Assembly: GCF_003719195.1 (NCBI RefSeq)
Contig: NZ_CP024996.1
Coordinates: 5,518,001-5,582,000 of the forward strand
DNA from: Herbaspirillum rubrisubalbicans
GTDB taxonomy: Bacteria; Pseudomonadota; Gammaproteobacteria; Burkholderiales; Burkholderiaceae_D
Length of the DNA stretch: 64,000 nt
Direction: 5' to 3'
Shown here: piece after piece, positions 8,984 through 64,000 of the stretch
Numbering within the stretch: the first letter of the stretch is position 1
Layout: each line of letters opens with the position of its first letter
Notes under the pieces: generated by a model
Seen by the model: the letters and a program-made list of their open reading frames with translations, nothing else
What the model was told of the DNA's origin: nothing
The model's database searches: none
Position numbers and translations under genes: made by a program

Positions 8984-9011
8984 AACCCTCGTTACTTTCG
9001 TAACGAGGGTT
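8981..9011 (-). terminator. Terminator of the rRNA operon
   Basis: Perfect 12-bp inverted repeat AACCCTCGTTAC (8984-8995) and GTAACGAGGGTT (9000-9011) with a 4-nt loop. Read on the minus strand it is followed by TTTTTGCTTTT, a standard intrinsic terminator just downstream of the 5S gene. Confidence 0.88.
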
Positions 9012-9025
9012 CTGCGGAGTAACAA

Positions 9026-9140
9026 GCCTGACGATGACCTACTTTCACACTGGTTGCAGCACTATCATCGGCGCGAAGTCGTTTCACGGTCCTGTTCGGG
9101 ATGGGAAGGGGTGGTACCAACTTGCTATAGTCATCAGGCA
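9026..9140 (-). rRNA. rrf: 5S ribosomal RNA
   Basis: On the minus strand it begins TGCCTGATGACTATAG and ends near GTCAGGCT, so the two ends pair as expected. The internal CCCATCCCGAACAG loop is the conserved 5S signature. Boundaries may be off by a few bases. Confidence 0.95.
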
Positions 9141-9275
9141 TAACTTGTAAAGCCAGTTGCTCTCGATGGAGCAGCAACTAACCCAAACTGGAAGAAGTAT
9201 TTAGATTCTAGGGTGTGATGCACTAGGGCAAACACAATATATGCTCAACTTGTCTATAACAGAGCTAATGTTATA

Positions 9276-12150
<2,875 letters not shown>

Positions 12151-12337
12151 AACGTTAGCCTCTTTTGCAAGAGCGTTATAAAAAGCGTTGAGTTTTAGCG
12201 TTTGCCGTATTCCAAAGTAAGTCTTCTAATTGCTAAGATCACTTCGTAATACTTTGATTGATACAATCACACCCATTTTTACTTTCGCAAGAACCGTAGT
12301 CCTGGCGATCGTTTAAATGAATCTTTACTTCTTCCAG

Positions 12338-12353
12338 ATTGTTAAAGAACAAA
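12338..12353 (-). promoter_or_regulatory. boxA-like antitermination element before 23S
   Basis: On the minus strand this reads TTTGTTCTTTAACAAT, close to the boxA consensus TGCTCTTTAACA bound by NusB/NusE. It lies between tRNA-Ala and the 23S gene, where a second boxA is commonly found. Confidence 0.65.
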
Positions 12354-12433
12354 AACAGCCATTGATCGTAAAAGATCAAACCTAAATCACTACGTCTTGC
12401 GTTTTGTGACGCTGACTTAGGTTTGACATTTCT

Positions 12434-12509
12434 TGGTGGAGGTTGACGGGATCGAACCGACGACCCCCTGCTTGCAAAGCAGGTGCTCTCCCAGCTGAGC
12501 TAAACCCCC
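12434..12509 (-). tRNA. tRNA-Ala (anticodon TGC)
   Basis: 76-nt tRNA on the minus strand, beginning GGGGGTTTAGCTCAGCTGG and ending with an encoded CCA. The anticodon loop CTTTGCAAA contains TGC (plus-strand 12474-12476). The GGTTCGATCC T-arm is intact. It is the second tRNA in the 16S-23S spacer. Confidence 0.97.
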
Positions 12510-12516
12510 GAAACCT

Positions 12517-12593
12517 TGGTGGGTCTGGTTGGGCTCGAACCAACGACCCCCGCGTTATCAACACGGTGCTCTAACCAGCTGAGCTACAGACCC
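12517..12593 (-). tRNA. tRNA-Ile (anticodon GAT)
   Basis: 77-nt tRNA on the minus strand, beginning GGGTCTGTAGCTCAGCTGG with encoded CCA at the end. The anticodon loop TTGATAA contains GAT. It is the first spacer tRNA, 7 bp before tRNA-Ala, the usual Ile-Ala order in proteobacterial rrn operons. Confidence 0.97.
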
Positions 12594-12709
12594 GCTTGGA
12601 TCAGTATCAGTAGCCAGTCAGTGACCTTGTGTCACAGACCGCGCTTCACCAAATAACTGTTCTTTGAATTACAGCCGATAAGTGTGGACGCTTAACTTCG
12701 TGCGCACTC

Positions 12710-14246
<1,537 letters not shown>

Positions 14247-14692
14247 ATCTCTGTTTTGTGCCATTTCTGGCTACCCCGAAGGGCATCGCTCTCTCAAAAT
14301 ACTGACAGGTAATTTCTTGCGATCTTACCTATATTTCTTGTGAGCATTTAATGTTTAAAGTTTCCAGAACCGAAGTTCTGTCGCACTTCATTAAACGCCC
14401 ACGCTTATCGACTGTTAATTTTTAAAGATCTTGTCTGCCGCAAACGCGCTTGGCGCTGCTTGCATCGCTGCGAATCGTTTTGTTCGTCAGCAGCAGAGAA
14501 ACGAGATTATGTAGCAGTTTGTTTATCGCGTCAACTACTTTTTTGCGATTCGTTTTAAATTTTTTCGTCTCGCTTAACTGATCGCTTCGACTACTTCCAT
14601 TTAAAACGCCCTACAAACCACTTCACACCTCTTTGCTTCGCCCACCTCCGTCGCTCTGTCTTTCAACTTCGCTTCGTGTGTCGCGTCAGCAG
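14247..14692 (-). other. 16S leader region with boxA and processing stem
   Basis: About 450 bp of rRNA leader without a protein gene. On the minus strand it contains GATCTTTAAAAATTAACAG (around 14413-14431), a boxA-like element, followed by CGATAAGCGTGGGCG. That latter stretch is complementary to the region after 16S (CCACACTTATCGGCTG), giving the RNase III stem. Short open frames here should be ignored. Confidence 0.7.
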
Positions 14693-14699
14693 GGGGCGA

Positions 14700-14755
14700 A
14701 CTATAGCAACCCTCCCCACACCGCGCAAGCCCTTTTTCAAAAATAATTGAAAATA
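14700..14755 (-). promoter_or_regulatory. rRNA operon P1 promoter with AT-rich UP element
   Basis: Read on the minus strand, -35 TTGCGC (14728-14723) and -10 TATAGT (14705-14700) are separated by exactly 17 bp. An A/T-rich UP-like stretch lies upstream (14730-14760) and a C-rich discriminator (TCGCCCCC) lies downstream of the -10, as expected for a growth-rate and ppGpp controlled rrn promoter. Transcription should start near 14692. Confidence 0.8.
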
Positions 14756-14837
14756 ATTTAGAACGATAGCCACAGCACTCCTCTTCAATCTCTCGCAAAG
14801 CCTTGGCAGACAAGACTTTCATCGGATCCAGGGAAAC

Positions 14838-14888
14838 TGCAAAAACAAAAAGAAACCGGGCCATCCCTAACGGGATAGCCCGGTTTCT
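14838..14888 (-). terminator. Terminator downstream of the BON-domain gene
   Basis: 11-bp arms AGAAACCGGGC (14851-14861) and GCCCGGTTTCT (14878-14888), with further pairing inside. On the minus strand the hairpin is followed by TTTTTGTTTTTG. It isolates the BON gene from the rrn promoter 100 bp further on. Confidence 0.85.
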
Positions 14889-14901
14889 TTTCCAGGCAGG
14901 C

Positions 14902-15231
14902 TTATCCAGCCCTTACCGTCAGCTCACTTTTCACATCGCGCACCCCCTCGACCCCGGCCACCAGCTGCAATGCGTGCTGACCCAGTTCCGTGGTGGGCAC
15001 CGATCCCTTCAAGGTGACCACGCCATCCTTGGTAGTGACCTTGATCTTCATGGCCGAGACTTGCTTGTCCTCCAGCAGCGCCGCCTTGACCTTGGCGGTG
15101 ATGACCGAGTCATCTATATAAGCGCCCGCCTTCTGTGCGCTTGGCGCGTCGGCGGCCTGCACGGTCGGGACGGTGGCGGCGATCAAGAAGCTGGCGGCCA
15201 GCAGGTGGGCAACGAATGGGGTCTTCTTCAT
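14902..15231 (-). CDS. Periplasmic BON-domain protein
   Basis: 109 residues: an N-terminal Sec signal peptide (MKKTPFVAHLLAASFLIAA, cleavage expected after VQA-A) followed by one BON domain of the OsmY type (DDSVITAKVKAALL ... DGVVTLKGSV ... GVRDVKSELTV). BON domains bind phospholipid or envelope components and appear in stress-induced periplasmic proteins. The start at 15231 follows a CCAAGGAG ribosome binding site; the upstream extension to 15264 is not needed. A sigma-54 promoter lies 80 bp upstream, and the sigma-54 activator gene glrR ends 230 bp upstream on the same strand. Confidence 0.85.
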   Translation of the reverse strand: MKKTPFVAHLLAASFLIAATVPTVQAADAPSAQKAGAYIDDSVITAKVKAALLEDKQVSAMKIKVTTKDGVVTLKGSVPTTELGQHALQLVAGVEGVRDVKSELTVRAG

Positions 15232-53284: not shown

Positions 53285-54457
53285 TCAATATGCCGCCTGC
53301 TGGCGCTCACGCGCCTCGCGTTCGATGGCCTGAGCCTGCATGAAGGCATCGAAGGAGCGCTCGATGGTGGCACGCTCGATGTCGCGGGTGATGAAGACGA
53401 TGCGACTGCGACGGTCTTCCGAGGGCCACTCAGGCAGGGTGGCGGTGGGGTGGAAGATGTGCTGCACGCCGTGGATGACGGTGGGCTTGTCGTCTCCCTT
53501 GAGGTTGAGAATGCCCTTGATGCGCAGGATGTTGGGGCCCTTGAAGCCCACCAGCAGGCTCAGCCATTCATCGAAGAGCACCGGGTCGATGGGTTCGTCG
53601 AAGGTAAAGCAGAAGGCGCGGATGTGGTCGTCGTGGCGGTTGACGTCATGGGCGTGGTCATGGTGATCATGGTGATCATGGTGATCATGGTGATCGTGAT
53701 GCTCATGATGATCATGATGATCGTGGCCATGATGATGCTCATGGGCATGGGCCTGCTGCTCGGCAAAGGCTTCCTCGTTGAGCCAGCGCGCCACGTCCGG
53801 CATCTTTTCGCCCGGCTTGAAGAGGCCGGCATCGAGCAGCTCTGCCGCGGCGATCTGGCCCAGTTGCGGCTGCAATTGGCGCGCGCCCGGGTTGAGGGTG
53901 CGCAGACGCGCCTGCAAGGCGGCCAGGGTGGCGGCGTCGGCCAGGTCAGTCTTGGTCAGCAGCAGGCGGTCGGCCACGGCGGCCTGCTGGATCGCTTCGG
54001 GATGATGGTCCAGGGTGGACATGCCATTGACCGCATCGACGGTGACGATCACGCCATCAAGGCGATAACGGGCCGCGATGAAGGGGTCGGTCATCAGGGT
54101 ATGCAGGATGGGCGTGGGCGAAGCCAGGCCGGTGGTCTCGATGACCACGCGGTCGAACTTGCGCTGGCCGCCTTCGGCAAAGCGCCAGGTGATGTCCTTC
54201 AAGGTCTTCTTGAGGTCGCCGCGGATGGTGCAGCACAGGCAGCCGCTGCTCATCTCGACCACGGTGTCTTCCTGGCGGTGCGCCACCAGCAGATGGTCCA
54301 GGCCGATCTCGCCGAACTCGTTGATGATGACCAGCGTGTTCTTCATTTCCGGCTGGGTGATCAGGTGGTTCAACAGCGTGGTCTTGCCACTGCCGAGAAA
54401 ACCGGTCAACAGCGAAACGGGAATCGGCGCAGCGCCGGCGGGGACGGATGGGTTCAT
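53285..54457 (-). CDS. CobW/ZNG1-type G3E GTPase with His-rich insert
   Basis: 390 residues. P-loop GFLGSGKTT (19-27), metal-binding CLCC (73-76, GCLCC motif), Walker B VVIETTGLASP and NKxD-like TKTD form the G3E GTPase. A His-rich stretch (about 235-275, many HDH and DHH units) precedes the CobW C-terminal domain. Such proteins act as zinc or cobalt metallochaperones. Its DNA has four exact copies of a 9-bp unit (53660-53695). The next gene, ribA, encodes a zinc enzyme, so zinc supply is a reasonable guess. Confidence 0.88.
   Translation of the reverse strand: MNPSVPAGAAPIPVSLLTGFLGSGKTTLLNHLITQPEMKNTLVIINEFGEIGLDHLLVAHRQEDTVVEMSSGCLCCTIRGDLKKTLKDITWRFAEGGQRKFDRVVIETTGLASPTPILHTLMTDPFIAARYRLDGVIVTVDAVNGMSTLDHHPEAIQQAAVADRLLLTKTDLADAATLAALQARLRTLNPGARQLQPQLGQIAAAELLDAGLFKPGEKMPDVARWLNEEAFAEQQAHAHEHHHGHDHHDHHEHHDHHDHHDHHDHHDHAHDVNRHDDHIRAFCFTFDEPIDPVLFDEWLSLLVGFKGPNILRIKGILNLKGDDKPTVIHGVQHIFHPTATLPEWPSEDRRSRIVFITRDIERATIERSFDAFMQAQAIEREARERQQAAY
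53660..53695 (-). repeat. Four tandem copies of a 9-bp unit coding for His-Asp-His
   Basis: ATGGTGATC repeated at 53660, 53669, 53678 and 53687. On the coding strand it gives the repeated D-H-H units. Imperfect copies continue to about 53745. The unit is a multiple of three, so slippage would change length without frameshift. Confidence 0.8.
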
Positions 54458-62910: not shown

Positions 62911-62959
62911 GCCACCGCATAAGACTTTTGCATCCCAACAACCAGCGGTGGTCTTATGC
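62911..62959 (+). promoter_or_regulatory. Mutually exclusive hairpins covering the PRTase start codon
   Basis: GCATAAGAC (62917-62925) can pair with GTCTTATGC (62951-62959), which contains the start codon. CCACCGC (62912-62918) can pair with GCGGTGG (62945-62951), the likely ribosome binding region. The two pairings cross, so only one can form at a time. It may be a translational switch. Confidence 0.5.
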
Positions 62960-63534
62960 AAGTCAACATCAAGGCGCTTCACGGCCGATTCAACCGAGGC
63001 TATGCCCTCGACAAACATTCGATCTCCAGCACGCCTTGTGGCTATAACGAATCCGGTCACATGCAGTGGAACACCCTGCGTACTCAGGCTGGTGAGGCGC
63101 TTTACCAGCTGAAGTACAGGCAGCAGCGCAAGCATGTCTTGCCGCTCGCACTGGCCGTGCAAACGCATATCCTCCCTTTGTTGCCCAACTTTGGATTGAT
63201 CATCCCGATGGCCGCCTCCAACCCGCGCAAGGAGCAGCCGGTGATGGAAGTCGCCCGGGCGCTCGGGCGGCTGAGCGGCAAACCGGTATTTGAGTTACTG
63301 AGCAAGATTGCAGGCCGTCCCACCTTGAAAGACCTGTCATTGCGATCAGAAAAGGAGGATGCACTGGCAGGCTCGATTACCTTGCATCGGCTCATCATCA
63401 ACAAAGGACGCTGGAACGCACTGCTGCTCGATGACCTCTACGACACCGGCGCCTCGCTGGACGCCGCGTGCGACGTGCTGCGCAGTTATGAGAAAATCGG
63501 AGAAATCTTTGTGGCGACGCTGACGTGGAGGTAA
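62956..63534 (+). CDS. ComF-like phosphoribosyltransferase
   Basis: 192 residues. The C-terminal half contains the PRPP-binding loop ALLLDDLYDTGASLDAA (about 154-170), and upstream FGLIIPMAASNPRKEQPVMEVARALGRLSG is the usual ComF-type region. The N-terminus (KALHGRFNRGYALDKHSISS ... HMQWNTLRTQAGEALYQLKYRQQ) is not the zinc finger of ComF but a different conserved module. The start codon at 62956 lies inside a hairpin. It is followed 4 bp later by the SLOG-like gene, so the two are likely one functional pair. Confidence 0.8.
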   Translation: MQVNIKALHGRFNRGYALDKHSISSTPCGYNESGHMQWNTLRTQAGEALYQLKYRQQRKHVLPLALAVQTHILPLLPNFGLIIPMAASNPRKEQPVMEVARALGRLSGKPVFELLSKIAGRPTLKDLSLRSEKEDALAGSITLHRLIINKGRWNALLLDDLYDTGASLDAACDVLRSYEKIGEIFVATLTWR

Positions 63535-63538
63535 GCCC

Positions 63539-64000
63539 ATGACCACCGTTTTCATTGCTGGCTCCATCACCATCAAGCAGCTTGATGCGAAGGTGCAAGA
63601 ACGGATCATGAATATCGTGCATCAGAATTTCGATGTCGTGGTCGGCGATGCCGACGGCGCCGACACGTCCATCCAGCAATTCTTGCTGCATTTGAAGTAC
63701 CCGCATGTGACCGTCTTCTGCACCGGTAAGACGCCCCGCAACAACCTCGGGCAGTGGTCCGTACAGCACGTCAAGACCGCTCATCGGCCTGGCTCGCGCG
63801 CTTACTTTACGGCCAAGGACCTGGCCATGGCAAAGCTCGCGGATTCCGGCCTGATGATCTGGGATGCAAAAAGTACCGGCACACTGAGCAATGTCATCGA
63901 ACTTCTCAAGCGCAAGAAATATTGCTGGGCTTTCCTCGACAAGCTCAAGACTTTCCACGCCATCAAGAGCGTTGATTCGCTGGAGAGCTTGCTTGCCTAC
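63539..64000 (+). CDS. SLOG-like (Rossmann nucleotide-binding) protein, 3' end outside window
   Basis: 154 residues visible, no stop before the window end. N-terminus MTTVFIAGSITI, then VVVGDADGADTSIQQFLL, a glycine/aspartate motif like that of YspA/DprA-type SLOG proteins, and later AKLADSGLMIWDAKSTGTLSNVIELLKRKK, which suits a nucleotide-binding or base-processing role. It starts 4 bp after the phosphoribosyltransferase stop, with GGAGG (63527-63531) as ribosome binding site. Nothing in it looks like a transmembrane or DNA-binding part. Family assignment is by motif only. Confidence 0.65.
   Translation, partial: MTTVFIAGSITIKQLDAKVQERIMNIVHQNFDVVVGDADGADTSIQQFLLHLKYPHVTVFCTGKTPRNNLGQWSVQHVKTAHRPGSRAYFTAKDLAMAKLADSGLMIWDAKSTGTLSNVIELLKRKKYCWAFLDKLKTFHAIKSVDSLESLLAY

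Follow-up and report, generated by a model that had tools for sequence, protein, structure and literature searches.

Only a few phosphoribosyltransferase (PRTase) toxins with DprA-like antidotes have been described, and little is known of their chemistry. In RqlHI/PsyrTA systems, a DprA-like neighbor that ends in a helix-turn-helix (HTH) restrains the toxicity of a PRTase; RqlH toxicity is reported to require the protein's PRTase domain, and RqlI to bind and restrain RqlH (PMC4670107). A review describes ShosT as combining PRTase and pyrophosphatase activities and perturbing purine metabolism, and ShosA as a DNA-binding antitoxin (PMC12593503). A DprA-PRTase pair located in a P2 hotspot gives protection from T7 and lambda, in a report that also notes DprA homologs as antitoxins (PMC9122126), and the PRTase/winged-helix (WH) effectors of type III-A1 retrons show a PRTase acting as effector (PMC12548924). 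A PRTase that may or may not belong to the locus described here is also named in a figure legend of newly validated defense systems (PMC13092281). Among the matches listed from the open-license PMC literature, with subscription papers outside the search, we recognized no paper describing that locus. It consists of two adjacent genes, encoding a PRTase and a SLOG-fold protein, at the right-hand end of a 64-kb window (bases 5518001-5582000) of the one-contig, 5.6-Mb genome of Herbaspirillum rubrisubalbicans. We propose that these two genes are probably a mobile toxin-antitoxin module in which the PRTase is the toxin and the SLOG protein the antitoxin, because of their tight pairing, the folds of their products, losses that strike the PRTase and spare SLOG, fusions to an HTH, mobility, and a defense-gene neighborhood.

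The pair lies between two genes that, judged by their sequences, we take to be ybeD and dat, and by analogy its mode of action is probably akin to that of ShosTA or RqlHI. A PRTase toxin with a DprA/SLOG antidote is already known as a kind, and the compact two-gene family differs from its described members. As in ShosTA, PRTase and DprA/SLOG-fold proteins are encoded side by side, but ours are 192 and 194 residues long, against 424 and 308 in the solved ShosT and ShosA chains and 237 positions in the PADLOC ShosT model, and on sequence the pair cannot be filed as ShosTA. In RqlHI/PsyrTA, a RecQ-like helicase is fused to the PRTase, whereas our 192-residue PRTase stands alone in its ybeD-dat setting; with the helicase absent, the pair is not a member of that group. 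The same neighbors, among which we recognized no reverse transcriptase by eye, set it apart from type III-A1 retrons. What we describe is the smallest form of such a system we have met: two proteins of ~190 residues, found on conjugative plasmids and near defense genes, with natural antidote-only relatives. It offers a simple system for finding the target that a PRTase toxin modifies and the way in which a SLOG fold keeps such a toxin in check, and suggests a function for genes whose present annotations are just 'ComF family protein' and 'hypothetical protein'.

The PRTase and SLOG genes form one unit. The first-pass annotation had placed a SLOG-like Rossmann protein 4 bp downstream of the PRTase, and this gap is confirmed: after the PRTase stop codon, TAA at 63532-63534, come GCCC and then the SLOG ATG at 63539. 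It had also raised co-location in unrelated genomes, and this is what we find. Of 398 genomes sampled across the phylum, seven carry the PRTase at E<1e-30 and the identical seven, our own included, carry a strong SLOG match, with one additional SLOG match that is a weak fragment; at E<=1e-3, the PRTase profile matches 171 genomes of this sample. A scan of named genomes, from which the best 80 of 166 relatives were retained as loci, places the SLOG gene downstream and on the same strand in 80/80, its start mostly -4 to +10 nucleotides from the PRTase stop (one value is an outlier). The loci come from Alpha-, Beta- and Gammaproteobacteria, plus one draft record each under the names Verrucomicrobia, Acidobacteriaceae and Peptococcaceae. 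The 23 fetched loci with weaker, ComF-like matches to the PRTase profile hold larger proteins (229-363 residues in 19 of 23), and none of them has a SLOG of this family within ~1.5 kb. Pairwise-distance matrices for the two proteins correlate across 79 loci (r 0.846, against 0.167 for the best of 1000 permutations), a correlation to which shared host descent contributes. The ratio of nonsynonymous to synonymous substitution rates (dN/dS) among six Herbaspirillum copies is 0.05-0.35 for both genes, from 15 pairs per gene of which one PRTase pair was not computable and many dS values are saturated. These low ratios, together with the numbers of homologs at E<=1e-3 (429 for the PRTase and 1567 for the SLOG protein), exclude chance open reading frames (ORFs).

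An AlphaFold2 model of the PRTase (predicted local distance difference test score, pLDDT, 92.3) matches PRTase folds, with ComF nearest and ShosT less close, a structure of ShosT with phosphoribosyl pyrophosphate (PRPP) being among the matches. The protein carries a PRPP motif and, in an alignment of 22 sequences, no conserved cysteine in its N-terminal part; the first-pass description of a ComF-like PRTase with a non-zinc N-terminal module is borne out. Although ComF/ComFC is the nearest fold, our PRTase lacks the zinc finger, is accompanied by a SLOG protein, and falls far under the comF family cut-off, and we rejected identity with competence ComF on the missing cysteines and on a score of 14.6 bits where 233.55 are required. 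Among PADLOC profiles, PsyrT (E 2.5e-6) and ShosT (E 0.0069) match our PRTase; of 22 PRTases scanned, every one matches the PsyrT model and 16, weakly, the ShosT model. Library searches with ShosT/PsyrT in 200 genomes matched nearly all genomes and controls and were excluded from the counts. A PHROGs search with the PRTase gave no match.

The model of the second protein (pLDDT 93.4) matches SLOG folds; of the outcomes that the first-pass annotation had named as refuting it, a different fold for this protein or homologs that are not co-located and sit in core metabolic operons, neither was observed. Foldseek returns ShosA as its top match, the fold resembling ShosA/DprA, and among the structural matches listed are also the ThsA SLOG with 3'cADPR and LOG enzymes; a fold missing from these listings is not thereby excluded. 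The catalytic motif of LOG enzymes is PGGxGTxxE; our protein has KSTGTLSN instead, with an invariant Asn118 at the position of the catalytic Glu. Among profiles, PADLOC ShosA reaches E 0.04 with a query cut at the window end and matches 2/21 SLOGs, weakly, and the SLOG profile has no clear match (hhalign probability 0.8) among five PsyrT-neighbor proteins taken from the eight strongest PsyrT loci. In PHROGs, the SLOG protein matches a GTP-binding-domain family (E 1.8e-7). Our SLOG has no HTH domain and no NCBIfam match. Long SLOG ORFs (at least 240 residues from the domain start) occur in 17/79 loci, and a C-terminal HTH_37 was found in 7/8 long SLOGs scanned (six of seven drawn from those 17, plus one plasmid copy; E 1.4e-16 to 4.5e-21). 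The C-terminal part of a Xanthomonas plasmid SLOG scores 91.4 bits for the addiction module antidote TIGR02684 (cut-off 53.7), in agreement with the record's annotation. Long SLOGs share their C-terminal HTH with the HTH_37 antitoxins; our own differs in lacking it and in having a PRTase as partner.

The pair is patchily distributed, and the PRTase can be lost while SLOG is kept. Within the genus, dat is present in 34/34 genomes, and among 30 recovered ybeD-dat loci, ours included, the site contains the pair in four (G000, G025, G008, G019), SLOG alone in one (G028), and neither in 25; two of the genomes with an empty site (G013 and G011) carry the pair elsewhere. Genus totals are 6/34 genomes for the PRTase and 7/34 for SLOG. 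In a family-wide survey of 294 genomes, every genome with a strong PRTase match (14/14) has SLOG, and 5/19 with a strong SLOG match have no PRTase (G028, G636, G626, G616, G488); three further SLOG matches are weak fragments (G669, G531 and G596, the last accompanied by a fragment of the PRTase). The PRTase of G028 has lost its middle and kept its first and last codons, and the SLOG ORF there stays open for 198 codons. The PRTase end alone is left in G636, G626 and G616, and in all four of these genomes GGAGG, the likely SLOG ribosome-binding site, is kept after the PRTase deletion. G488 retains a short mid-PRTase remnant in frame with SLOG. Elsewhere the SLOG gene is open beside a PRTase that contains a stop (L078), an early stop (L269), an IS3-family element (an Enterobacter plasmid copy), or an unrecognizable N-terminal part (L235). 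Among the loci compared, each intact PRTase of this family that we met had a SLOG gene or an annotated antidote gene next to it. Loss of a toxin ahead of its antidote is what a toxin-antitoxin system predicts, and this one-sided loss therefore supports the PRTase as toxin and SLOG as antitoxin. Across the 294 genomes, the genes behave as toxin-antitoxin pairs generally do: they are a two-gene unit in which no strong PRTase match, the proposed toxin, occurs without SLOG, and SLOG alone, the proposed antitoxin, is tolerated.

The pair is also mobile. Among 72,556 plasmid records, 96 contain SLOG relatives and 61 contain PRTase relatives, and 55 and 38 of these, respectively, are typed as conjugative. 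The comparison took in 57 of the 60 PRTase matches listed, out of 61 records, and 51 of the 60 SLOG matches listed, out of 96; left out were three partial PRTase matches at 41% and nine Mesorhizobium SLOG matches at 36-37% identity. SLOG adjoins the PRTase match in 49/57 compared places; of the other eight, five PRTases adjoin an annotated addiction module antidote gene and three are broken (L266, L267, L270), with SLOG there broken or absent. In 18 plasmid neighborhoods inspected, repA, parDE, parG and parA lie near the Citrobacter and Rouxiella copies, repA and conjugation genes near a Klebsiella copy, and CBASS genes by copies in Rhizobium and Agrobacterium; other regions have no such neighbors, for example those of two Agrobacterium copies that lie near genes for sugar transporters. 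On chromosomes, the closeness to defense genes that the first-pass annotation had suggested is supported: at 37 chosen chromosome or contig loci of the 80, with genes taken from a greedy ORF caller, 144 nearest-neighbor proteins match 164 PADLOC families and 145 proteins at the locus ends match 2 (E<=1e-10), a tally of families rather than proteins, with 25 of the 164 listed and some being general helicase or nuclease models. Families near the pair include LmuA, BrxD, BrxHI, HamA, HamB, a SAVED-HNH effector, SngC and retron reverse transcriptase. No clear excess of integrases near the pair appears in the first 25 families of a Pfam neighbor tally (3 near, 2 far). In IMG/VR, predicted-viral contigs provide 12 SLOG and 21 PRTase loci, overlapping, with both genes in 32/33; the exception, L239, starts with the SLOG gene. 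These carriers may be prophages or misfiled plasmids.

Some distant plasmid relatives deserve separate mention. On Listeria innocua plasmid pLI100 (L229, 5405-6516), a Gram-positive pair at 33% and 45% identity stands directly after a rep gene. Distant pairs also occur in two Neisseria gonorrhoeae records of 2.17 Mb, NZ_CP119142.1 and NZ_CP119140.1, whose size suggests chromosomes filed as plasmids. On Mesorhizobium huakuii plasmid p_3 (L271, 2585-4534), a SLOG relative without PRTase adjoins a DUF2493 protein, with ParA near.

We propose that the PRTase would bind PRPP-Mg through its intact DD motif and that, once free, it would disturb nucleotide pools, metabolism or nucleic acids, by analogy with ShosT and RqlH. 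The SLOG protein would restrain it by direct binding, as RqlI does RqlH, and the HTH-bearing SLOGs of some lineages could also repress the operon. Plasmid copies would act as an addiction module, and chromosomal copies in defense islands would fire once a phage disturbs the pair. A more ambitious version, which we put forward tentatively and think rather doubtful, sees a distinct and widespread minimal PRTase-SLOG toxin-antitoxin family serving both plasmid addiction and phage defense, in which SLOG is also a nucleotide sensor and a phage-altered ligand in its conserved pocket frees the PRTase.

Other readings of the pair have to be weighed against a toxin-antitoxin module. The first-pass annotation had drawn a connection to nucleotide signaling, and such a role is possible, but the evidence suggests, more specifically, a toxin-antitoxin module that resembles ShosTA and RqlHI and has a PRTase toxin. 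In its strict form the signaling idea is a dedicated abortive infection system, where one partner makes or alters a nucleotide upon infection, the other senses it, and growth arrest is a mere consequence. The ability of SLOG folds to bind nucleotides, as the ThsA match illustrates, the conserved SLOG motifs and the defense-gene neighborhood all agree with this; yet we see no third gene next to our pair that could supply a signal synthase or an effector, loss of the PRTase with SLOG kept suits an antidote better than a sensor left without its effector, and the HTH antidote fusions also speak for an antidote, so that we judge dedicated signaling unlikely. Competence factors include both ComF-like and DprA-like proteins, and the pair could accordingly be imagined as a DNA-uptake or recombination module acting on incoming single-stranded DNA. 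Its patchy spread through the genus, its frequent carriage on plasmids, the missing zinc module, and the lack of this SLOG beside weaker ComF-like loci leave very little room for that reading. We give the least credence to a metabolic nucleotide-salvage pair with SLOG as a phosphoribohydrolase: the PRPP motif is intact and LOG enzymes are among the SLOG matches, but an invariant Asn occupies the catalytic Glu position of the LOG motif, and the distribution is patchy and mobile, with plasmid-maintenance genes as neighbors.

Several observations weigh against a toxin-antitoxin module of the kind we favor. The RqlH PRTase domain expressed alone was reported to be non-toxic, and rqlH often occurs without rqlI (PMC4670107). 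A PDB sequence search with our PRTase and SLOG matched no ShosT or ShosA chain, and of the two profiles compared, ComF is closer to the PRTase family profile than PsyrT is. The count of independent PRTase losses is probably too high, as G636 and G626 have a common leader and may reflect one event, perhaps with G616 too, and a single stop interrupts the SLOG match both in G488 and in G480, close to the C terminus and outside the main open stretch. A search of 50,697 phage records gave zero matches to the pair. Our own copy sits between core genes, outside any defense island, and by eye we recognized no defense gene beside it among its neighbors in the window and extended locus. Finally, SLOG matches occur in 18 Mesorhizobium plasmid records, and on at least 11 Mesorhizobium plasmids distant relatives (36-39% identity) have no PRTase among the matches listed; two of these matches (39%) entered the plasmid comparison, also without a PRTase match. 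These distant Mesorhizobium SLOGs may serve other uses.

Features of the PRTase-SLOG locus, in window coordinates
Feature	Position	Strand	Description
Predicted RNA hairpin	62917-62959	+	pairs PRTase start codon; z -2.57
PRTase gene	62956-63534	+	encodes a ComF-like protein of 192 aa with a non-zinc beta N-terminal module; proposed toxin
PRPP-binding motif LLLDDLYDTGAS	63421-63456	+	D159, D160 invariant in 22 aligned sequences
GGAGG	63527-63531	+	within final PRTase codons; likely SLOG ribosome-binding site
SLOG gene	63539-64000 in window	+	154/194 codons in window; ends at window-equivalent 64123 (L002 3540-4124); proposed antitoxin
SLOG motif GDADGAD	63644-63664	+	conserved
SLOG motif STGTLSN	63872-63892	+	occupies place of LOG PGGxGTxxE loop; invariant Asn118 at catalytic Glu position

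The SLOG gene overruns the window end by 123 nucleotides, and its full length of 194 residues was read from the whole genome. The first-pass annotation had suggested that further members of the system may lie beyond base 64000; extension to the right instead shows that the next gene past SLOG is dat, a D-amino-acid-aminotransferase-like ORF on the opposite strand, and we rejected a longer island on that side. The drop in base composition that it had noted at the pair is real (the G+C fraction of the pair is 0.569, that of the whole window 0.622, of ybeD 0.605 and of dat 0.624), but is confined to a stretch of ~1.3 kb comprising the pair plus its leader, inserted between ybeD and dat, and the two genes are therefore the low-GC segment itself and not its edge.

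The hairpin predicted at the PRTase start codon is a suggestive hint only. The leaders of six Herbaspirillum copies, including two with the same sequence over the folded stretch, fold better than shuffled sequences (z between -1.46 and -2.57), and those of two outgroup loci do not (z 0.19 and 0.35).

Elsewhere in the window, positions 9001-15000 have GC down to 0.49-0.53 and negative GC skew, making this a larger candidate island than the PRTase-SLOG pair. On the minus strand at 53285-54457, an ORF with a long His/Asp repeat, which, judged by its sequence, we take to be a CobW/COG0523-like GTPase, lies beside a presumed GTP cyclohydrolase II-like ORF.
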